From Fodinibius salicampi (GTDB lineage Bacteria > Bacteroidota > Rhodothermia > Balneolales > Balneolaceae), in the NCBI RefSeq assembly GCF_039545095.1, contig NZ_BAABRS010000002.1:682001-746000 (forward strand): DNA of 64,000 nucleotides, given 5' to 3'. The position numbers were made by a program, and so were the translations under genes. The notes below the pieces were generated by a model, which saw only the letters and a list, made by a program, of their open reading frames with translations, was not told where the DNA came from and ran no database searches. Positions 26,515-53,680 of the stretch are shown one piece after another (the first letter of the stretch is position 1; the number at the start of each line of letters is the position of its first letter).

Positions 26515-27696
26515 CTAATACTGCGGAACACTCTCATCAATTTCCTGCGACCAGGCCAGGATTCCCCCTTTTAGGTTGTATAGGTTGTCAAAACCGTACT
26601 TATCCCGGAGCTGTTTAATAGCATCGGCACTGCGCTGACCGCTACGACAATGGACAACCACTTTTTTATCCCGGCTTATTTTATCCGCATTTTCAGTTAC
26701 CGTTTTGAGGGGAATAAGTTCCCCTCCGATTTCAGCAATTTCCACCTCGTGCGGTTCGCGAACGTCAATGAGCTGTACATCTTCGTTGGAATCCAGCCAC
26801 GATTTATATTCCTGTACGGTTACTTCCGGAACCTCGGAATCTTTGCTTTCCTCTTCTTCTGAAGATGGGATGCCGCAGAAGGCCTCGTAATCAATGAGCT
26901 CAGTAATCTCAGGATTTTCTCCGGTCAGTGGATTATCCTTATTCTTAGTGACTTTAACTTTTCGGGTGCTGAAATTCTGGGCATCAAACAGGAATAATTG
27001 TCCCGCTAACGGTTCACCTATCCCAGTGATAATCTTGATAACTTCACTGGCTTGGAGGCATCCGATAATACCGGGGAGTACGCCTAAAACGCCCGCTTCG
27101 GCACAACTGGGTACAAGTCCGGGAGGGGGAGGTTCGGGAAAAAGATCACGGTAATTCGGCCCGCGGTTTCCTTCTTCATCTACATAGTTAAAAACGGAAA
27201 GTTGTCCCTCGAACTGAAAAATGGAACCGTGGACGTTTGGCTTATCCAGCATTACGCAGGCGTCATTAATCAGGTAACGAGTTGGAAAGTTATCGGTCCC
27301 GTCGGCAATTACATCGTAGTTTTCTATAATTTCAAGAGCGTTTTCACTTGTAAGCCGAACATTGTGAACCTGGATGTCTATATGCGGATTGATTTCCTGG
27401 AGGCGCTCTTTGGCAACCTCAACTTTGGATCTTCCCACATCAGAAGCTCCGAATAACACTTGCCTGTGCAGATTGCTTGCCTCGACTTTGTCAAAATCAA
27501 CGATACCAATGGTACCAACCCCGGCTGCTGCGAGATACTGGAGCATGGGTGCTCCGAGTCCACCGGTACCAACGGCTAATACTTTAGCAGCTTTTAGTTT
27601 CTTCTGCCCTTCCATGCCAAATTCCGGTATTGAAAGATGACGACTGTAATGGCCGAGTTCATCACCCGAGAACTCTATGTCTTGCCAATTGCTCAT
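26515..27696 (-). CDS. MoeZ-like adenylyltransferase-rhodanese (sulfur-carrier activating enzyme)
   Basis: A 393-residue fusion. The N-terminal ThiF/MoeB E1-like domain (about 1-260) has GTGGLGAPMLQYLAAAGVG, DGTDNFPTRYLIND and the LVPSCAEAGVLG cysteine. A rhodanese domain (about 295-393) has VVHCRSGQRS with the persulfide cysteine. It would adenylate the C-terminal Gly of the small carrier encoded upstream and transfer sulfur to it, as MoeZ does for CysO in mycobacteria. The usual zinc CxxC pairs are not seen; the first position reads NPLTG. It is the last gene of the leftward cysM-mec-cysO operon, 90 bp after the carrier gene. Confidence 0.9.
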   Translation of the reverse strand: MSNWQDIEFSGDELGHYSRHLSIPEFGMEGQKKLKAAKVLAVGTGGLGAPMLQYLAAAGVGTIGIVDFDKVEASNLHRQVLFGASDVGRSKVEVAKERLQEINPHIDIQVHNVRLTSENALEIIENYDVIADGTDNFPTRYLINDACVMLDKPNVHGSIFQFEGQLSVFNYVDEEGNRGPNYRDLFPEPPPPGLVPSCAEAGVLGVLPGIIGCLQASEVIKIITGIGEPLAGQLFLFDAQNFSTRKVKVTKNKDNPLTGENPEITELIDYEAFCGIPSSEEEESKDSEVPEVTVQEYKSWLDSNEDVQLIDVREPHEVEIAEIGGELIPLKTVTENADKISRDKKVVVHCRSGQRSADAIKQLRDKYGFDNLYNLKGGILAWSQEIDESVPQY

Positions 27697-27786
27697 AACT
27701 GTATGTAATTTTTAAAATTCTTAAATATTGCCTGGTTCATGCGGATACCAAATAACCAGTGGTAAACGTCTAAGGTTATTTTTTAT

Positions 27787-28074
27787 TCAGTATGGTATTT
27801 GACAACCGCCCGCAATAGCGGGGACAATACTTATTTCTGTATCCTCATCGAGCTCTATGGTACCATTTTTAACGGGATCCACTTCCTCATCTTCGATATA
27901 GATTTTAATATACGACCGGATATTGCCGTCCTCATCCAACAGGTTCTGTTTTACCTCAGGATATTCATCCACAAATTGTGCGATAGCATCCGAGAGGTTG
28001 TTTTCCTGAGTCTCAAAACTGCGGTTTTGGTTCGTATATTTCCGCAAGGGTGTTGGAATAATAATCGTTGCCAT
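27787..28074 (-). CDS. CysO/MoaD-like sulfur-carrier protein with C-terminal extension
   Basis: A 95-residue ubiquitin-fold carrier (MATIIIPTPLRKYTNQN start, IYIEDEEVDP core, SIVPAIAGG near the end). Typical carriers stop at GlyGly so that the terminal Gly can be thiocarboxylated. Here five residues, CQIPY (91-95), follow G89-G90, so the protein needs trimming first. The JAMM protease encoded 21 bp upstream is the obvious candidate. QbsE/QbsD of Pseudomonas are, as I recall, a similar case, in which the protease removes a Cys-Phe tail. Confidence 0.9.
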   Translation of the reverse strand: MATIIIPTPLRKYTNQNRSFETQENNLSDAIAQFVDEYPEVKQNLLDEDGNIRSYIKIYIEDEEVDPVKNGTIELDEDTEISIVPAIAGGCQIPY

Positions 28075-28095
28075 AGTAATTACGTATTTAGGGTT

Positions 28096-28533
28096 TTAGC
28101 TTGTTGAAAGTTCTTTTTCTGATATTGTTTCTTCGTCAAATTGCCGTTCATCATTTAAGCGCCAGGAACGGGTAGCCGCTGCTTTTCCATTCTGCACTGA
28201 TACAATAACATAGGAAAACCAGGGCATCGCTACTTTCCGGTCATGTTCGGAAGGTTCGGCCGGATGATCAGGGTGTGAGTGATATACCCCCAGTAAATCC
28301 AAGTCGTGATCAATAGCATATTTTTCAGCTTTTCGGTAATCATTGGGATCAATTTGAAAGCGTCTGCTCTGATCTCCTTCCTTTGCATTGTCAACCTGCT
28401 GAACAAACTGTACCTGGCGTATTTCTCCTTCCTGATCCTGTCCGTAGAAAAAACCGCAGCACTCATTGGGGTAATCAGCTTCAGCGTGCTGATGCATTTT
28501 CTGTAGCTCCTTATGAGTTATTTCAAGTTTCAT
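28096..28533 (-). CDS. JAMM (Mov34/MPN) metalloprotease, Mec+-like
   Basis: A 145-residue zinc isopeptidase-fold protein with a complete JAMM motif: E24 in NECCGFF, H85 and H87 in HSHPDH, S95 and D98. In mycobacteria Mec+ cleaves newly made cysteine from CysO-Cys; QbsD-type members trim carrier tails. Both jobs are needed here because the carrier downstream ends in GG plus five residues. Lies 5 bp after cysM and 21 bp before the carrier gene. Confidence 0.92.
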   Translation of the reverse strand: MKLEITHKELQKMHQHAEADYPNECCGFFYGQDQEGEIRQVQFVQQVDNAKEGDQSRRFQIDPNDYRKAEKYAIDHDLDLLGVYHSHPDHPAEPSEHDRKVAMPWFSYVIVSVQNGKAAATRSWRLNDERQFDEETISEKELSTS

Positions 28534-28538
28534 AATTG

Positions 28539-29483
28539 TTAAAAAAGTTGGTTAAATATTTCCCCGTACTTGCTGGTATCATCAGGAAAAATGGTCACAA
28601 TGACCCCTTCATCTAATTGTTCAGCGAGCTGTAGCGCTCCGGCCAGGTTAGCACCGGAAGAGGGACTGATTAATAATCCTTCTTTACGGGCCGTTAATTT
28701 TACAACCTCGTGGGCTTCTTCGGTGCTTACCGTTCGAATTTCATCGGGAACCGAAGAGTCATAAATTTTCGGTGTTATGGCTGTTTCCAGATGTTTCCAT
28801 CCTTCCAGTCCATGCATCGCAAGATCAGGTTGTAAACCAATAAGTTGAATGTCAGGATATTGCTCTTTTAAAAAACGTGCTGTCCCCGTAAACGTTCCAG
28901 TCGTTCCCAGGCCCGTAATAAAGTGAGTTAGTGTGTGATCCGTTTGGTCCCAGATTTCTGGTCCTGTTGTATCGTAGTGCGCTTTCCAGTTACTTGGGTT
29001 GCTATATTGGTCGGCATAAAAGTATTTCTCGGGTTGTTCTTCAAAAATTGATTTAGCGACTCCCTGGGCTTCATCGGTCCCGCCACTACGAGAGGTTAAT
29101 TTAAGATTAACCCCTAGTGCTTTTAGAATCTGTTTTCGTTCTTCTGAAGCATTTTCCGGCAGGCACAGGGTAACGGGTATATCAAGCGCTGCTCCAACAT
29201 GTGCATAAGCAATACCAGTATTTCCACTGCTTGCATCCAACAGATGTTTGGTCTGGTCAAGTTTTCCATTTTTAATAGCATCACGGATTATTCGATAGGC
29301 AGGACGTGCTTTAACACTTCCGCCGAACTGTTGCCATTCTAATTTGGCAAAGATCTTAACATCTTTATTGGAATGAAGCTTTTGGATCGGAAAAAGTGGG
29401 GTTTCCCCGATATAAGAGCCAATAGTTAGGCTTCTTTGCTTTAAGTCGTCTATTTTATTTTCAATAAATTTTGCGGACTTCAT
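28539..29483 (-). CDS. cysM: Cysteine synthase, CysM-type PLP enzyme
   Basis: A 314-residue fold-type II PLP enzyme. The Schiff-base lysine is K58 in GGSVKARPAY; SSGNTGIAYA is the substrate-binding loop and GLGTTGT the phosphate loop. Co-location with carrier, JAMM protease and MoeZ-like enzyme strongly suggests use of protein thiocarboxylate as sulfur donor, as for mycobacterial CysM with O-phosphoserine. Choice between O-phosphoserine and O-acetylserine cannot be made by eye. First real gene of the leftward operon; its leader holds a poly-Cys reading frame (29608-29703). Confidence 0.92.
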   Translation of the reverse strand: MKSAKFIENKIDDLKQRSLTIGSYIGETPLFPIQKLHSNKDVKIFAKLEWQQFGGSVKARPAYRIIRDAIKNGKLDQTKHLLDASSGNTGIAYAHVGAALDIPVTLCLPENASEERKQILKALGVNLKLTSRSGGTDEAQGVAKSIFEEQPEKYFYADQYSNPSNWKAHYDTTGPEIWDQTDHTLTHFITGLGTTGTFTGTARFLKEQYPDIQLIGLQPDLAMHGLEGWKHLETAITPKIYDSSVPDEIRTVSTEEAHEVVKLTARKEGLLISPSSGANLAGALQLAEQLDEGVIVTIFPDDTSKYGEIFNQLF

Positions 29484-29596
29484 ATTGGAATAATTATATC
29501 ATAAAATTTTATAAAGGGATAGATCATTGGCAGAGATAAAAGTTGGGATAAGAACCGGAACTGAAACCTGCTTTACAATAAGAAATTGAGAAAAAT

Positions 29597-29650
29597 CAGG
29601 TTAGTTACTAACTACAACAACAGCAACAACACGCACAAGTTAAGTGCGTG
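29597..29650 (-). promoter_or_regulatory. Hairpins in the leader of the cysM operon
   Basis: On the minus strand CACGCAC and GTGCGTG form a perfect 7-bp hairpin with a 7-nt loop (29650-29630) overlapping the first Cys codons of the leader peptide. A second short hairpin (GTTAG/CTAAC, 29612-29600) covers the leader stop codon and is soon followed by five T residues. AACCTG (29602-29597) could also pair with CAGGTT (29570-29565). Ribosome position on the Cys codons would decide which forms. No strong terminator is obvious, so the output step is uncertain. Confidence 0.4.
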
Positions 29651-29703
29651 AAAAGAGGGGAGGGTAATATATTAATTGCTGTTAGCAAAGTTAGTTGAGT
29701 CAT
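29608..29703 (-). CDS. Poly-cysteine leader peptide (31 aa) of the cysM operon
   Basis: A 31-residue frame from ATG (29703-29701) to TAG (29610-29608). Its C-terminus reads TCACCCCCCS: seven cysteines, six in a row. It lies 125 bp before cysM on the same strand, and a TATAAT stands 34 bp ahead of its start. Such a run is typical of a sensing peptide where ribosomes stall if Cys-tRNA is short. The opposite operon has its own Cys-rich leader. I see no Shine-Dalgarno site. TTG/TGT repetitiveness is the main caveat. Confidence 0.7.
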   Translation of the reverse strand: MTQLTLLTAINILPSPLFTHLTCACCCCCCS

Positions 29704-29902: not shown

Positions 29903-29931
29903 TTGACATAAATAATTATAGTTTCTAATGT
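29903..29931 (+). promoter_or_regulatory. Sigma70-type promoter of the sulfate-assimilation operon
   Basis: TTGACA (29903-29908), a 17-bp spacer and TAATGT (29926-29931). Transcription should start near 29939, about 43 nt before the Cys-rich leader ORF. Confidence 0.7.
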
Positions 29932-29981
29932 ATAGGCGCACTGATGGGCCGATGCCATCGTAAGCAATAGAATTTTTTTTT

Positions 29982-30098
29982 ATGAATACTCAAAATCAGA
30001 TCCACAACTTTTCGATGATACCCACTACCATGTGTGTTATGTGTATGTGTTGTTGTATGTGTATGCCGAGAGGTAGTGGAACTGATATGTCAAAATGA
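29982..30098 (+). CDS. Cys/Met-rich leader peptide (38 aa) of the sulfate-assimilation operon
   Basis: A 38-residue frame from ATG 29982 to TGA 30096-30098, too short for ordinary gene callers. Its centre reads MCVMCMCCCMCM (residues 17-28): six Cys and five Met in twelve codons. It sits between a good promoter (29903) and a perfect terminator hairpin (30121-30147), directly before the Cys-forming operon. The Cys codons (30033-30062) follow segment 1 (30021-30029) of an attenuator. It acts as a sensor, not as a structural protein, by analogy with trp and his leaders. Confidence 0.85.
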   Translation: MNTQNQIHNFSMIPTTMCVMCMCCCMCMPRGSGTDMSK

Positions 30099-30154
30099 GT
30101 TATAGAAACTGACTGTCAAAAGCCCACTACCTGTCGCAGGTAGTGGGCTTTTTT
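30021..30154 (+). promoter_or_regulatory. Cysteine transcription attenuator (four pairing segments)
   Basis: Four segments alternate in sense: 1 CCCACTACC (30021-30029), 2 AGGTAGTGG (30071-30079), 3 CCCACTACC (30123-30131), 4 GGTAGTGGG (30139-30147). Segments 1 and 2 pair over 8 bp, 2 and 3 over 9 bp, and 3 and 4 inside a 13-bp terminator. If ribosomes stall on the Cys codons just after segment 1, segment 2 is free to pair with 3 and the terminator cannot form. If they pass, 1:2 and 3:4 form and transcription stops. The segments are seen directly; the mechanism is inferred from the trp model. Confidence 0.85.
30121..30154 (+). terminator. Attenuator terminator of the sulfate-assimilation operon
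   Basis: AGCCCACTACCTG (30121-30133) pairs perfectly with CAGGTAGTGGGCT (30137-30149... stem end) around a TCG loop, followed by a run of T residues. It stands 97 bp before the first gene of the operon, so it must be conditional. Confidence 0.9.
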
Positions 30155-30250
30155 GATTGTTAAAACACCCACCCACCTGCGTCAGAAGGGCTTTGTGACT
30201 ATTTATTTAATCACCTAACCCAAAACAAAAAACACAAAGCAATAAATATT

Positions 30251-31093
30251 ATGCCTGACGTATTAACTAACGAAAAAGTACTTGTTACCACAGATTGGGC
30301 CGCTGATCATCTTAATGATGAAGGCGTCCGATTCGTAGAAGTTGACGTAGATACCGAATCCTATGATTCCGGTCATATTCCCGGTGCCGTAGGATGGAAC
30401 TGGAAAAACCAATTGCAGGATACGCTGCAGCGCTCGATTGCGTCTCAAGAAGATTTCGAGCAGTTACTGCAAGAATCGGGTATCGATAACGATACTACAA
30501 TTGTACTCTACGGAGATAATAACAACTGGTTTGCTGCATGGGCCTACTGGCTATTAAAGTATTATGGGCACGAAGATGCTCGTATTCTGGACGGTGGCCG
30601 TAAGAAGTGGCAAGCCGAAAATCGTGAATTGACGACCGATGAGCCGGATCTTAGCGCTGGTGATTATTCCATTGAGAGCGTAAATAAAGAATATCGTGCC
30701 TTCCGCAATGATGTTGCCGAACTTATAGAGGGCGACGATTTTGGCTTGGTGGATGTTCGTTCTCCTGAAGAGTTCAGTGGCGAAAAACTGGGTCCTGAAG
30801 GACTAAATGAAGGTGCTCAGCGTGGTGGCCATATACCCGGTGCATCCAATATACCTTGGTCTAAGGCGGTCAATGAGGACGGCACATTCAAGAGTAAGGA
30901 AGAATTACAGAAAATTTACGAGAATGAGGGAGTTACACCAGACAAAGAGATTATCGCATACTGCCGTATTGGTGAACGATCAGCACACTCCTGGTTTGTA
31001 CTTAACGAGTTGCTCGAGTATCCAACCGTTCGAAATTACGACGGTTCATGGACTGAATGGGGTAACTTGGTAAATGCACCTATTGAGCGGTAA
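30251..31093 (+). CDS. Thiosulfate/3-mercaptopyruvate sulfurtransferase (CysA2/SseA-like)
   Basis: A 280-residue tandem rhodanese protein. The N-terminal domain is inactive (no Cys in the loop), while the C-terminal domain has YCRIGERSAHSWFVL with the persulfide cysteine. That loop is close to mycobacterial CysA2. It moves sulfane sulfur from thiosulfate to an acceptor and may supply sulfur to the carrier pathway of the divergent operon. First gene of the rightward operon, directly behind the cysteine attenuator. Confidence 0.92.
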   Translation: MPDVLTNEKVLVTTDWAADHLNDEGVRFVEVDVDTESYDSGHIPGAVGWNWKNQLQDTLQRSIASQEDFEQLLQESGIDNDTTIVLYGDNNNWFAAWAYWLLKYYGHEDARILDGGRKKWQAENRELTTDEPDLSAGDYSIESVNKEYRAFRNDVAELIEGDDFGLVDVRSPEEFSGEKLGPEGLNEGAQRGGHIPGASNIPWSKAVNEDGTFKSKEELQKIYENEGVTPDKEIIAYCRIGERSAHSWFVLNELLEYPTVRNYDGSWTEWGNLVNAPIER

Positions 31094-31123: not shown

Positions 31124-32806
31124 ATGGGTTCTCGACGAAAACGAACAAAAAGTAAAATCGAAGTCATAAAGGAGAACAGCGATTATCTGCGAGCGCCTCT
31201 TGCTGAAGAAGTGGGGAATGATTCTTCCCACTTCGGCAAGGAGGCGATCCAGGTGCTTAAATTTCACGGCACCTACCAGCAAGATGATCGTGATCTCCGA
31301 GAAGGCCGAGACCGACACTATATTTTTATGATCCGGGGACGATTGCCCGGTGGTAAAATGACTCCCGAACAATATCTTGCGATTGATGAAATCGCCGATG
31401 AATATGCGGATCAGACGCTGAGGGTTACCACCCGGCAGGCGTTTCAATTGCATGGGATCATTAAGGACGAGCTCAAAGAAACATTGCAGGAAATCAATAA
31501 TTCATTGATTACTACACTGGGAGCCTGCGGAGATATTGTCCGAAATGTAATGGCGACACCTGCACCTGATATCGATGGCCGTCAGGCTAAAGTTCAGGCA
31601 TTTGCCGATGATCTTTCGGATATTCTCCTTCCGGCCAGTAAAGCCTATCACGAGGTATGGCTGAATGGGGATAAAGTATATTCTGGAAAGGAAGAGGTTA
31701 CGGAAAGTGAACCTCTGTATGGACACAGCTACTTGCCACGTAAATTCAAGGTAGGAATCGCACTGCCCAAAGATAACAGTATTGACGCCTATACACAGGA
31801 TATCGGGTTGGTAGCATTGTTCGATGATGATAATGAAATCGAAGGCTTCAACGTGATTGTCGGTGGAGGCATGGGTATGAACCACCGCAAAGAAGAAACA
31901 TTTCCCCGGCTTGGTGATGATCTTGGATACATTCCCAAAGAGAAAGTGGTAGATGTGGTTAAAACAATCATTGAGATACAGCGCGATCACGGGGATCGAA
32001 AGAACCGCAAGCAAGCCCGAATGAAGTACCTGATTCATAAATGGGGACTGGAAAAATTTGAAAACGAACTCGTAGAACGCCTTGGATATGAGCTGGAGCC
32101 CTTTCGAGAGCTGCCGGACTTTGAACTGGATCTTTATCTTGGCTGGAATAAGCAGTCGGATGGCAACTGGTTTTTAGGACTCTCCATTGAAAACGGTCGC
32201 ATCAAAGATGAGGGCGCACTTCAGCTGAAAACGGCACTTCGTAAGATTGTTAAAGAGTATGAGACGGGTGTTCGATTGACCCCGAACCATAACGTCATTC
32301 TTACGGATATATCTGAGGATGATAAAGCTGCTATAGAGCAGATCTTTGATGAGCATGGAGTATTGCTGGATGATGAGCTTTCCAATGCAATCAAGTATTC
32401 GATGGCATGCCCGGCCCTTCCTACCTGTGGACTTGCCATTACTGAATCGGAGCGTGCGCTTCCGGATATCATCAGAGATTTGGATGACGTACTCCATGAA
32501 CTTGGTCTCGAAGACGAGAAGCTGTCTGTGCGTATGACAGGCTGCCCAAATGGCTGTTCCAGACCCTATGTAGCGGATATTGGTTTTGTAGGGCGCTCGC
32601 TTGATAAATATTCTATTTTTATTGGTGGAGATCCTTCCGGAACCCGGTTAAATAGCCGTTACAAAGATCTGGTTGAACGTAAAAATCTCGTAAATGAGGT
32701 TCGTCCCTTACTCGAGCACTTTAAAGATAATCGTGTAAATGGCGAATCATTTGGAGACTTCTGGGAAAGAGTCGGGATTGAAGAAGTCGAACAAGTTACT
32801 GCATAA
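31124..32806 (+). CDS. Sulfite reductase hemoprotein (ferredoxin/NirA-like)
   Basis: A 560-residue siroheme/[4Fe-4S] reductase. CPALPTC (C429, C435) and GCPNGC (C474, C478) bind the cluster that bridges siroheme; both ferrodoxin-like halves are present (TTRQAFQLHGI, then LTPNHNVIL). It reduces sulfite to sulfide with six electrons. Context with APS/PAPS reductase and siroheme genes favours sulfite over nitrite. No flavoprotein subunit lies nearby, so the ferredoxin at 35198 is the probable donor. Confidence 0.93.
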   Translation: MGSRRKRTKSKIEVIKENSDYLRAPLAEEVGNDSSHFGKEAIQVLKFHGTYQQDDRDLREGRDRHYIFMIRGRLPGGKMTPEQYLAIDEIADEYADQTLRVTTRQAFQLHGIIKDELKETLQEINNSLITTLGACGDIVRNVMATPAPDIDGRQAKVQAFADDLSDILLPASKAYHEVWLNGDKVYSGKEEVTESEPLYGHSYLPRKFKVGIALPKDNSIDAYTQDIGLVALFDDDNEIEGFNVIVGGGMGMNHRKEETFPRLGDDLGYIPKEKVVDVVKTIIEIQRDHGDRKNRKQARMKYLIHKWGLEKFENELVERLGYELEPFRELPDFELDLYLGWNKQSDGNWFLGLSIENGRIKDEGALQLKTALRKIVKEYETGVRLTPNHNVILTDISEDDKAAIEQIFDEHGVLLDDELSNAIKYSMACPALPTCGLAITESERALPDIIRDLDDVLHELGLEDEKLSVRMTGCPNGCSRPYVADIGFVGRSLDKYSIFIGGDPSGTRLNSRYKDLVERKNLVNEVRPLLEHFKDNRVNGESFGDFWERVGIEEVEQVTA

Positions 32807-32824
32807 CAATCATAACATCGTACT

Positions 32825-33640
32825 ATGAGTATTCAACCACATCAATACCAGAACTGTGGAAAAGTTTACCTTGTTGGAGCAGGGCCGGGAGATCCCGACT
32901 TGATTACCGTTAAGGGGGCAAAAGTGCTGGGAGAGGCCGATGTAATTGTATATGATCGGCTGGCTAATCCGGAACTTTTGTCACTTACCCGGGATCGCTC
33001 AGAGCACCTTTATGTCGGGAAACGCCCCGGCAAGCCATCGGTTTCGCAAGAACAGATTAATCACATTTTAATCACCAAAGCTCAGGAAGGTAAAACGGTG
33101 GTGAGACTTAAGGGAGGAGATCCTTTTGTCTTTGGCCGGGGAGGGGAGGAATGTGAGGCATTGCGTAAAGAGGATATTCCGTTTGAGATAGTACCGGGTA
33201 TTAGCAGTGCCTTGGCTGCTCCGGCCTTTGCCGGTATTCCGGTAACGCATCGAAATGTGGCACGATCATTTACGGTAGTTACCGGACATACTATTAAGAA
33301 AGCAGATACTTTTGCTAACTGGGAACACCTGGTCAACGCCGATACGCTTGTTATTCTTATGGGAATGAAGAGTCTTCCAAAAATAGCTGAAATTTTGATA
33401 AGATACGGCCGGAAAGCAGATACACCTGTAGCTGTTATTGAGCAGGCGACTTATCAATCCCAGCGAACGGTATTAGGAACTTTGGAAAATATTGCTGAGA
33501 AAGCTGTGTCGCTGTCTCCACCTGGTACAATCGTAATTGGAGAATTAGCTGCCAAAAGCAATGACTTAGCGTGGTTTCAGACAGAAGAAAAGGCAGAAGT
33601 CACTTTTAATACCAGTTTACGAACGCAATTTGCAGGTTAA
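32825..33640 (+). CDS. cobA: Uroporphyrinogen-III C-methyltransferase
   Basis: A 271-residue SAM-dependent SUMT making precorrin-2, first committed step to siroheme. VGAGPGDPDLITVKG is the N-terminal signature, GGDPFVFGRGGEE the SAM-binding loop, and VPGISSALAAPAFAGIPVTHR the active-site region. Serves the sulfite reductase encoded 18 bp upstream. Monofunctional, so the oxidase/chelatase half is the separate gene at 34436. Confidence 0.94.
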   Translation: MSIQPHQYQNCGKVYLVGAGPGDPDLITVKGAKVLGEADVIVYDRLANPELLSLTRDRSEHLYVGKRPGKPSVSQEQINHILITKAQEGKTVVRLKGGDPFVFGRGGEECEALRKEDIPFEIVPGISSALAAPAFAGIPVTHRNVARSFTVVTGHTIKKADTFANWEHLVNADTLVILMGMKSLPKIAEILIRYGRKADTPVAVIEQATYQSQRTVLGTLENIAEKAVSLSPPGTIVIGELAAKSNDLAWFQTEEKAEVTFNTSLRTQFAG

Positions 33641-33651
33641 AACTATTAACA

Positions 33652-34428
33652 ATGCAGAAGCTAAAAGAAAAAATTATTCCAAACCAAAAACTTTCTCCAG
33701 AGCTGCTGGATAATCTTAATGCACAGTTTGAAGTAGCTGGTCCTGATGAGGTATTGCTATGGGCATACCATACTTTTGGATCTGATATGACACTCGGGAC
33801 AGGCTTTGGTCCGTCGGGAATGTTTTTAATCTATCGTCTTTGGGAGTTGGGAGTAGAAATCCCGATTTTCTACCTGGATACGAATCTGCTGTTTGATGAA
33901 ACTTATAAACTCAAAGATCGCATCGAAGAGCGGTATGATTTCGAAATAACTAGGGTGACCCCCGAGCTTTCAGTGGACGAGCAAGCAGAAAAATATGGTG
34001 ATGAACTTTGGAACAAAAATCCGAATCGCTGCTGCTACCTTCGAAAAGTACGCCCACTCCGTAATTATCTTTCGGATAAAAGGGCATGGGTAACAGGTAT
34101 TCGTAGAAGTCAGTCTGAAAGCCGACGTGATACCCAGTTTGTAGAATGGGATCCCGAGAACAATGTGGTTAAGATTAATCCCCTTGCCAGCTGGACCGGA
34201 GATGAGGTATGGAACTATATCCGTTCTAAAGGACTTCCATACAATCCTCTGCATGATGAAGGTTATCCTAGTATAGGTTGTATTCCTTGTACACAGCCCG
34301 CAGATGGAAAAACCGATGATCGGCGTACCGGGCGTTGGAACGGCTCTGATAAAACGGAGTGTGGTATTCATCTGCCAACACAACAAAAAAATGGCAAGAA
34401 AAATAAATTAACACCAAACAATAAATAG
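33652..34428 (+). CDS. cysH: Assimilatory APS/PAPS reductase
   Basis: A 258-residue thioredoxin-dependent reductase converting activated sulfate to sulfite. The C-terminal TECGIHLP holds catalytic C237. The pairs in NRCCYLRK and GCIPCT are the [4Fe-4S] cysteines that mark APS reductases, so APS is the likely substrate. GTGFGPSGM is the nucleotide loop. No ATP sulfurylase gene occurs in the window. Confidence 0.93.
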   Translation: MQKLKEKIIPNQKLSPELLDNLNAQFEVAGPDEVLLWAYHTFGSDMTLGTGFGPSGMFLIYRLWELGVEIPIFYLDTNLLFDETYKLKDRIEERYDFEITRVTPELSVDEQAEKYGDELWNKNPNRCCYLRKVRPLRNYLSDKRAWVTGIRRSQSESRRDTQFVEWDPENNVVKINPLASWTGDEVWNYIRSKGLPYNPLHDEGYPSIGCIPCTQPADGKTDDRRTGRWNGSDKTECGIHLPTQQKNGKKNKLTPNNK

Positions 34429-34435
34429 CGATATT

Positions 34436-35104
34436 ATGGAGATGTTTCCCATTTATTTACGCCGATTGGATGAGCGTAAAACGGTGATCGTCGGCGGTGA
34501 CCACGAAGCGGAAGGGAAGGTTGAACAGCTTCTCGAACGAAATGCCAGGTTAACGGTTATTAGCCCTCACCTGACAGAGAAACTACAGCGGTGGGCAGGG
34601 GAGAGGCGCTTCGAATGGATTCCCCGAAGGTATAAGCAAGGTGATCTGGAAGGGGCTTTTATGGCAATTGTAGCCCAATTTGAGGGGAATACAAATAAGG
34701 TAGCTTATCAGGAGGCCAAAGAGAGAGGTATTTTAATCAATGTAATGGATGATCTGTCTCATGCAAACTTTGCTTTTGGATCAATCGTAAAACGCGGTCC
34801 ACTAACTATTTCTATATCCACCAGTGGCGCAGCCCCTGCTTTATCTGTTCGATTACGACAGCGTTTCGAGAAAGAATTTGGTCCCGAATATGGAACTTTT
34901 CTGGAGTTCATGCAGAAACTGAGGGATCCAATGTCCAAACATCATGATAAGTTTGAAACTCGTAAAAAACTGTGGTATGAAGTGATAGATTCGGAGGTGC
35001 TTACTCTTTTTAGAGAAGAAAAAATTAGTGAAGCCTATCAGAGAACTGCGGATATTGTAGGCGAAGAAGTAGTGGAAGCTGCCTTGGGCACCTACAAATA
35101 TTAA
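34436..35104 (+). CDS. Precorrin-2 dehydrogenase/sirohydrochlorin ferrochelatase
   Basis: A 222-residue protein like Met8 or the N-terminal half of CysG. MFPIYLRRLDERKTVIVGGDHEAEGKVEQLL is the NAD-binding start; the SISTSGAAPALSVRLRQRFE stretch is the family hallmark. It oxidises precorrin-2 and inserts iron to give siroheme. With the SUMT in the same operon it makes the cofactor of the sulfite reductase. GG-DHEAEGK replaces the more common GGGxVAxRK, slightly unusual. Confidence 0.92.
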   Translation: MEMFPIYLRRLDERKTVIVGGDHEAEGKVEQLLERNARLTVISPHLTEKLQRWAGERRFEWIPRRYKQGDLEGAFMAIVAQFEGNTNKVAYQEAKERGILINVMDDLSHANFAFGSIVKRGPLTISISTSGAAPALSVRLRQRFEKEFGPEYGTFLEFMQKLRDPMSKHHDKFETRKKLWYEVIDSEVLTLFREEKISEAYQRTADIVGEEVVEAALGTYKY

Positions 35105-35197: not shown

Positions 35198-35536
35198 ATG
35201 GCTTATATTGTAGCTGAGCCCTGCATTAATTGTAAATATACCCACTGTGCCGCTGTTTGTCCGGTTGATGCCTTTCGGGAAGGACCTAATTTTTTGGTCA
35301 TTGATCCTTTTGAGTGTATTGATTGCGACGCCTGTGTACCCGAATGTCCCGTAGAGGCAATTTATCCGGATGATGAACTGCCCCTGGAGTGGGAGCACTA
35401 TATCGATCTCAATGATCGGTTGTCCGAAAAGTGGATGGAACACCATATCACTGAAACAACGGATCCGTTACCGGATGCTGATGACTGGGCTGAGAAGGAA
35501 GATAAAGATGACCTTCTTGAGGAGTCATGGGCATAA
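35198..35536 (+). CDS. 7Fe ferredoxin (FdxA-like)
   Basis: A 112-residue ferredoxin. C9xxC12x4C17x3CP (C21) and C40xxC43xxC46xxxCP (C50) match a [3Fe-4S]/[4Fe-4S] FdxA protein; an acidic tail follows. Last gene of the operon (93 bp after the siroheme gene), a probable electron donor to the sulfite reductase. Confidence 0.93.
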
Positions 35537-52918: not shown

Positions 52919-53680
52919 TTATATAGTTTCTCGAACCGGGATATCTGCATTTTTTAGTTTTTCTTTGAGATCATGAATTTCAATTTCCTGGAAGTGGAAA
53001 ATACTGGCCGCCAATACTGCGTCGGCCTTCGCCTTTTTAATGGCGTCGATGCAGTGTTGAGAAGTTCCCGCCCCGCCGCTGGCAATGACAGGAATGGAGG
53101 TGATATCGTTCACTGCTGAAAGCAGTTCCAGATCAAAGCCGGACTTTGTACCGTCGCGGTCCATACTCGTCAGTAAAATTTCTCCCGCTCCCCGCTCTTC
53201 AACTTCCTTAATCCATTTAAGAGCATTTTTGCCCGTATTTTTAGATCCACCTGAAATAAAAACTTCCCACTGGTCTCCTTGACTTTTGGCATCTACAGCA
53301 GCAACAATGCACTGAGATCCAAATTGTCGGGAAGCTTCATTAATCAAATCAGGATTGCGTACGATGGCGCTGTTTAGAGATACCTTGTCGGCCCCGGCAT
53401 GCAGCAAGTCAGCTATTTCTTCAACACTTCCAATACCACCACCAACAGTAAAGGGTATGTCCAGCTCAAGGGCGATTTTTTCTACGAGCTTTACCAGTGT
53501 TTTTCGCTTCTCCTTGGTAGCTGTTATATCCAGAAAGACAAGCTCATCTGCACCTTCCTTCGCATAACGGCGGGCCAGTTCTACCGGATCTCCGGCATCA
53601 CGTAGTCCCTCAAAATTCACCCCTTTTACTGTTCGTCCGTCTTTGATATCGAGACAAGGAATAATTCGTTTTGCGAGCAT
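52919..53680 (-). CDS. hisF: Imidazole glycerol phosphate synthase, cyclase subunit
   Basis: A 253-residue TIM barrel. [19 protein letters not shown] holds the first catalytic Asp, and [10 protein letters not shown] the second. GGGIGSVEE and [10 protein letters not shown] bind phosphate. Works with HisH, not seen here. Co-directional with hisIE. Confidence 0.96.

Follow-up and report, generated by a model that had tools for sequence, protein, structure and literature searches.

A putative ribosome-mediated transcription attenuator with cysteine and methionine codons before the sulfate-assimilation operon of Fodinibius salicampi and its relatives

A short leader ORF rich in Cys and Met codons lies amid four mutually complementary segments upstream of the sulfate-assimilation operon of Fodinibius salicampi (contig NZ_BAABRS010000002.1). 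From the comparison of sequences we consider it very probable that this region acts in the manner of the trp/his leaders, as a ribosome-mediated transcription attenuator that would read how much charged tRNA-Cys, and possibly charged tRNA-Met, is available. The anatomy of the leader is well supported, while its function, including premature termination and the response to charged tRNA, is what we infer from that anatomy.

Leader anatomy

The leader ORF (29982-30098, plus strand; all coordinates are those of the window, the whole 64-kb stretch of DNA that was analysed) starts with ATG and encodes the 38-residue peptide MNTQNQIHNFSMIPTTMCVMCMCCCMCMPRGSGTDMSK, which contains TMCVMCMCCCMCM. Its putative sensing codons are those of residues 17-28, MCVMCMCCCMCM (30030-30065, plus strand), comprising six Cys and five Met. 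Segment 1, CCCACTACC (30021-30029, plus strand), identified in a repeat search, lies immediately before these codons, and an alternative candidate for it occupies 30000-30015. Segment 2, CGAGAGGTAGTGG (30067-30079, plus strand; core GGTAGTGG at 30072-30079), follows the Cys and Met codons and is still within the ORF. Both the 38-residue ORF and the placement of segments 1 and 2 on either side of the Cys codons agree with what a preliminary description of this DNA had claimed. Segment 3 (30118-30133, plus strand; also from the repeat search) has its core CCCACTACC at 30123-30131, and segment 4 (30137-30152, plus strand) is the 3' arm of the terminator, with a T-run at 30149-30154. The pairing of segments 3 and 4, perfect over 16 bp and closed by a 3-nt loop, is followed by the T-run and makes an intrinsic terminator; it is indeed as perfect as described before, with a stem longer than the 13 bp then given. 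Between the end of the terminator and the first gene of the operon there are 96 nt. Since the gene upstream of the leader is divergent, a terminator at this place would have no upstream transcript to end.

The complementarity covers 8 bp, all exact, between segments 1 and 2, 13 positions (92%) between segments 2 and 3, and 9 bp, again exact, between segments 1 and 4, and the stop codon of the ORF (30096) falls between segments 2 and 3. The predicted energies are -16.9 kcal/mol for helix 1:2, -27.2 kcal/mol for 2:3 and -26.9 kcal/mol for 3:4; the switch would be a balanced one. The predicted fold of 29945-30160 lies 4.25 SD below dinucleotide shuffles, and that of 30064-30154 lies 5.6 SD below shuffles.

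The promoter had been described as a consensus one, which is true of half of it. The -35 element, TTGACA (29903-29908, plus strand), read directly from the sequence, is perfect, whereas the probable -10 element, TAATGT (29926-29931, plus strand; 17-nt spacing), is weak and matches at three of six positions. The promoter at 29903 was not among the matches of a promoter scan. By eye, TTGAC[A/T] is found at the -35 position in all eight Fodinibius loci, and TATNNT at the -10 position, at a spacing of 17-18 nt, in seven Fodinibius relatives.

In the Rfam covariance models the leader has no match at the gathering score, and at E <= 1 only three matches are obtained (mir-5736, rli22 and RsaJ), far under their gathering scores. 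Small ORFs (15-60 aa) with at least five Cys per nine residues number three in the 64-kb window, whereas 12 first-order Markov simulations produced none; two of the three are the leader of the sulfate operon and a divergent cysM leader. The third is located at 53241-53312 on the minus strand. A scan of the 64-kb window found no attenuator of comparable kind for another amino acid.

Target operon and proposed mechanism

Domain matches confirm that the leader stands before a sulfate-assimilation operon. The first gene encodes a sulfurtransferase with two rhodanese domains (30251-31093; PF00581), and it is followed, all on the plus strand, by genes for a sulfite reductase (NIR_SIR; 31124-32806; PF01077, PF03460), a tetrapyrrole methylase, probably uroporphyrinogen-III methyltransferase (32825-33640; PF00590), CysH of the PAPS_reduct family (33652-34428; PF01507), the NAD-binding part of siroheme synthase (34436-35104; PF13241, PF14824, PF10414) and a ferredoxin (35198-35536), which may be the last member of the operon. 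The CCYLRK and SIGCIPCT motifs of CysH presumably point to an APS reductase. The genes of the operon make the amino acid that is presumed to be sensed. On the minus strand, a divergent set (26515-29483) is composed, according to its domain matches, of a cysM-like PLP enzyme, a JAMM protease, a ThiS-like carrier and a ThiF/MoeB-rhodanese protein, and we take it to resemble the mycobacterial CysM/Mec/CysO system.

The order of events that we infer from this arrangement is as follows. The footprint of a ribosome extends about 12 nt downstream of its A-site codon. A ribosome halted on Cys18-Cys25 would thus cover or adjoin segment 1 and leave segment 2 free, one halted at Cys27 would begin to cover segment 2, and one reaching the stop at 30096 would pass through segment 2. 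When Cys-tRNA is plentiful, the ribosome would run to the stop, or leave so that helix 1:2 re-forms; the 3:4 terminator would then form, and transcription would end near 30154. When Cys-tRNA is scarce, a stall on the Cys codons would block segment 1 and allow the 2:3 antiterminator to form, upon which the polymerase would read on into the sulfate-assimilation operon.

Distribution of the leader in the order

The preliminary description had proposed to look for the same layout in relatives, and it recurs at 36 loci of the order, which belong to two families; eight are Fodinibius loci and 28 lie outside Fodinibius, in further genera and in a second family (order, class and phylum are used here in the sense of GTDB, which is broader than that of NCBI, where the phylum is Balneolota). 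Close homologues of the sulfurtransferase, the first gene, are present in eight of the 12 Fodinibius genomes, and all eight have the leader, one of the eight leader ORFs having been recognised by eye. The 28 non-Fodinibius loci were obtained from a CysH search of 128 genomes of the order and from neighbourhood scans, the leader of locus L096 again being recognised by eye. The leader heads the gene or operon at 34 of the 42 close cysH places (E <= 1e-69). Of the eight other places, two (L090 and L094) are on contigs that begin within the operon. In the remaining six, which are assessable, our scans showed no leader: L093, L095, L102, L112 and, in L092 and L105, one additional cysH upstream.

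The first recognised gene behind the leader may be the sulfurtransferase, the methylase, the sulfite reductase or CysH. In the second family, the operon opens with methylase or sulfite reductase and not with the sulfurtransferase; there are also lone cysH genes with a leader of their own. As the leader is kept while the first gene changes, it goes with the pathway rather than with any single gene. The distance from the stop codon to segment 3 is 23-45 nt (median 27, n = 30 loci), and the place of the stop between segments 2 and 3 is kept, which backs the trp-leader layout attributed to this region. This distribution suggests that much of the order controls sulfur assimilation through a leader RNA.

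Some loci of the order depart from the common arrangement. L096, L114 and L115 have a second, lone cysH with its own poly-Cys leader, which contains little or no Met, and a terminator-like hairpin. In the Fodinibius genome G009 (L006, L116) the leader and the sulfurtransferase are present, with no close CysH match. In G007, a tandem second copy of the sulfurtransferase (L017) shows remnants of segments 2-4 and no Cys ORF, possibly a decayed attenuator.

Co-variation of the segments

The core of segment 3 is CCCACTACC in the window and takes forms such as CCCGCTACC, CCCGCTGCC, CCCACTATC and CCCGCTATC, among others, elsewhere, and segments 2 and 4 change to match it in many lineages. Pairs were counted in 22 rows of the first family, because the 30-row MAFFT alignment misplaced segment 2 of the second family. 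In helix 2:3, 97.7% of the cells are paired, with six double-change cells, three base pairs altered in both partners and a covariation score of 0.216 (0.158 when shuffled); for helix 3:4 the corresponding values are 95.9%, 14, four and 0.248 (0.169 when shuffled). In neither helix did any of 500 shuffles reach the observed values of paired cells, double-change cells or covariation score. Two other measures do not stand out in this way: as many base pairs altered in both partners arose in 41 of 500 shuffles for 2:3 and in 17 of 500 for 3:4, and as many pair types in 227 and 325 of 500, respectively. For all of these measures, the relatedness of the rows may by itself be enough to beat shuffles, without any structure. 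Sliding breaks both helices. In these alignments segments 2, 3 and 4 co-vary in both mutually exclusive helices, and the earlier description of four alternating complementary segments holds.

The swap test, which requires no alignment, compares the pairing of each locus with its own partner to that with exchanged ones. For helix 2:3 it gave -17.1 for own partners vs -15.1 +/- 0.4 kcal/mol over 30 loci (0/20,000 permutations) and -17.35 vs -14.77 +/- 0.52 kcal/mol over 21 lineages (0/20,000); L007, L082 and L083 fail this test, and L081 and L103 give a nearly neutral result. For helix 1:2 the values were -13.80 vs -11.65 over 28 loci (0/20,000), with p = 0.0002 for 18 lineages, 0.002 for the 20 non-Fodinibius loci and 0.03 for the eight Fodinibius loci. 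These tests were run without L115, in which segment 2 comes after the stop, and without L096, L101, L108, L109 and L114; the 1:2 test was also run without L099, which has no upstream sequence, and L087, where the segment 2 call overran the Cys codons and whose inclusion gives -14.3 vs -11.6. Conservation is lowest in segment 1, and helix 1:2 is weaker than 2:3 and weak in several lineages. The frame of segment 2 reads differently by lineage (GSG, VVE, DSG, IRQR, AAVV), with the pairing mostly kept; as its amino acids vary in this way, selection on this segment would be at least partly on the RNA.

Cys and Met codons, and translation of the leader

Cysteine had been named as the sensed amino acid. 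Its codons are abundant in the leader, but they do not stand alone, as Met codons are present too. In the densest 12-residue stretches of 33 of the 36 sulfate leaders (the other three being the lone-cysH leaders L096, L114 and L115, with little or no Met there), Cys accounts for 139/396 residues (35%) and Met for 106/396 (27%), the background in ORFs of at least 250 aa of the window being 0.9% and 2.0%, respectively. At least two Met are found in the densest stretch of 31/33 leaders and 17/19 lineage representatives. The cysM leaders, on the other hand, have 103/168 Cys and 4/168 Met (14 of the 15 leaders, L059 being left out). To judge from this contrast in codon content, the sulfate leader may respond to both sulfur amino acids, although the Met codons may be kept for another reason, for instance as extra start sites. 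The spacing of the Cys and Met residues is not fixed (MCMCCMCCMC, MCCMMCC, MCTMCC, KCMCC).

The codon content also bears on a different idea of what is sensed. The Cys/Met-rich nascent peptide could itself be the sensor, of copper or another thiophilic metal, of redox state or of sulfide, and arrest the ribosome, so that the same downstream RNA switch would work with tRNA charging not being the signal. The cluster contains almost as much Met as Cys (106/396 vs 139/396), mixtures of the two residues are known to bind soft metals, and a copper-sensing Cys-rich uORF exists in Bordetella, all of which is in line with such a peptide. A binding motif would, however, be expected to be kept, and what is kept is the presence of several Cys and Met codons without a pattern; moreover, the operon makes cysteine, and the divergent cysM leader has Cys and hardly any Met. 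We therefore regard a peptide sensor as improbable and retain the reading of charged tRNA.

The leader ORF shows a pN/pS of 0.57 (539 codon pairs, which are non-independent), and its translation is moderately supported by the sequences compared. The codons TGT/TGC occur 155, 118 and 31 times in the three frames of the leaders; frame 0 and frame +1 are poorly separated, because ATGTGT holds TGT in both. Since a scan for open frames was how the leader ORFs were found, their openness is in itself no evidence of translation. The +1 frame of the leader in the window is also open and rich in Cys and Val (30034-30105, plus strand; MLCVCVVVCVCREVVELICQNEL).

The divergent cysM leader

The preliminary description overlooked a second leader ORF, taken here from the ORF list, which lies before the cysM operon on the minus strand (29608-29703) and encodes the poly-Cys peptide MTQLTLLTAINILPSPLFTHLTCACCCCCCS. 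In the order, each of the 15 close cysM orthologues (E < 1e-110) is preceded by a poly-Cys small ORF, and near the gene none was found in 15 distant PLP-enzyme paralogues of cysM. In L068, one such paralogue, a Cys-rich small ORF is seen about 1.2 kb upstream. Directly 3' of the stop of the cysM leader there is a possible hairpin (29565-29602, minus strand), formed by AACCTG at 29602-29597 and CAGGTT at 29570-29565, with a pyrimidine-rich loop, no T-run and a p of 0.08. Nine of the 15 loci give p <= 0.04 for this hairpin and the other six, the window included, lie above that value. Over the 15 loci its arms prefer their own partners (19.2 vs 15.5 +/- 0.7; 0/20,000). No intrinsic terminator was found in the cysM leaders of the order, and the hairpin is perhaps a Rho-linked or other switch.

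The more distant cysM orthologues of the phylum give another picture, since in 12 of 23 the Cys-rich small ORF is followed by an intrinsic terminator (L122-L126, L130, L133, L134, L136-L138 and L140); seven of the 12 belong to other families of the class and five to other classes. The swap test over these 12 gave -13.7 vs -11.8 +/- 0.67 (p = 0.0035), five of them (L123, L130, L133, L137, L140) being no better than average. In L132 a poly-Cys small ORF comes with a terminator-like hairpin, which was not scored, and another nine of the 23 are negative or ambiguous. L124 has the look of a textbook attenuator. In L121 (463-688, reverse complement), two poly-Cys ORFs were noticed by eye before a peroxiredoxin-like gene, not directly before cysM.

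The absence of an intrinsic terminator from the cysM leaders of the order might be taken to mean that the sulfate operon, too, is controlled mainly at translation or via Rho, its hairpin being incidental, and control of these kinds is described or suggested for the Cys leaders of Mycobacterium in excerpts of the relevant papers (PMC13236596, PMC1262725). This would be harder still to accept than a peptide sensor, for the terminator of the sulfate operon is perfect in the window, T-tailed, co-varying and 96 nt away from the first gene, and the competing helix leaves the start region of that gene out. Least probable of all is chance, or an ordinary terminator beside a spurious ORF: low-complexity TGT/ATG sequence can yield Cys-rich ORFs in more than one frame, but 36 loci in two families, two mutually exclusive co-varying helices, the divergent upstream gene and, strongly, the swap tests speak against it.

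Attenuation by charged tRNA thus being our preferred reading, a wider proposal may be put forward tentatively, with somewhat less than even confidence. The sulfate leader would be a two-amino-acid sensor, to which Met was recruited since sulfate assimilation feeds both amino acids, and a shortage of either charged tRNA would open the operon, with the cysM leader reading Cys alone. The divergent pair would then represent a cysteine-controlled switch of deep age in Bacteroidota/Balneolota, in which versions with an intrinsic terminator and versions without one stand side by side.

Comparison with known systems

The trp, his and leu attenuators of Proteobacteria consist of a leader ORF with codons for the product, segments 1-4 that pair alternatively as 1:2, 2:3 and 3:4, and an intrinsic terminator. 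The sulfate leader is similar to them in having codons for the pathway product, alternative helices and an intrinsic terminator before a biosynthetic operon, and it differs in its combination of Cys and Met codons, in serving sulfate assimilation, in its Balneolota host and in a segment 1 that is weak in several lineages. The stop codon is also placed differently, lying between segments 2 and 3 here and between segments 1 and 2 in E. coli trpL. Termination is also the means by which some T-box, SAM and other riboswitches regulate genes for sulfur or amino acids, whereas the sulfate leader has no Rfam match at the gathering score.

The cysA2 gene of Mycobacterium encodes a sulfurtransferase, as does the first gene of the sulfate operon described here, and the work of Canestrari (2020) is said to deal with poly-Cys uORFs of Mycobacterium and Actinobacteria. 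According to excerpts of the literature, the cys operons of actinobacteria have leader peptides with Cys runs and without a conserved terminator hairpin (Seliverstov 2005, PMC1262725), runs of Cys codons precede sulfur genes of Mycobacterium, including cysA2 (PMC1262725; Shell 2015, PMC4633059), and the poly-Cys uORFs of M. smegmatis are described in terms of translation attenuation (PMC13236596). The sulfate leader shares with these mycobacterial uORFs the Cys-codon runs before sulfur genes, and differs from them in its intrinsic terminator and co-varying antiterminator. The earlier view that Cys-rich uORFs are mainly actinobacterial agrees with these reports and has to be widened to the Rhodobacterales, in which, in the excerpts of PMC8632094, the uORFC-8-2 motif before cysS has two tandem Cys codons and a U-run that fits a 3' terminator, and transcription attenuation by Cys-tRNA is proposed. 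That motif belongs to another phylum and to another gene, for cysteinyl-tRNA synthetase, and these excerpts mention no Met cluster.

For the phylum of Fodinibius, no published example of a Cys attenuator was found in the open-licence literature, in accordance with the preliminary description, which knew of none; an earlier prediction in the group is possible, and a survey of attenuation by Lopatovskaya (2010) reportedly exists. If our reading is correct, Cys-codon attenuation with a complete intrinsic-terminator switch would be extended to the core sulfate-assimilation operon of this phylum, possibly with a dual Cys/Met specificity added. With the divergent cysM leader, two solutions to one sensing problem would be open to comparison within 0.5 kb.

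Cys-rich leaders beyond the order and elsewhere in the genus

To follow the leader beyond the order, the best 80 among at least 570 named relatives of the sulfurtransferase were surveyed. The leader ORF is present in all 11 Balneolaceae-type loci among these 80. In the other 69 relatives of the same best 80, ten have a small ORF with at least three Cys per nine residues, as compared to 5.4% of shuffled upstream sequences, and no terminator was found after any of these ten. As a control, a small ORF of this kind occurs in one of 11 sulfurtransferase paralogues or distant homologues, and it is unlike the leader. L187, L213 and L215, from Rubrobacter and Acidobacteria MAGs, have short small ORFs with CCC before sulfurtransferase genes, which could be due to chance.

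Further poly-Cys leaders in the genus were sought with TGYTGYTGYTGYTGY in 12 genomes, and 40 loci among a larger set of matches were scanned. Besides the known leaders, these 40 loci contain two new small ORFs with a gene at most 700 nt downstream, L254 and L230. L254, which is in the genome of the window, was rejected as a poly-Cys leader, because it lies antisense to a coding ORF, over a poly-Gln stretch of the latter. L230 is a 9-aa small ORF located about 550 nt before a gene.
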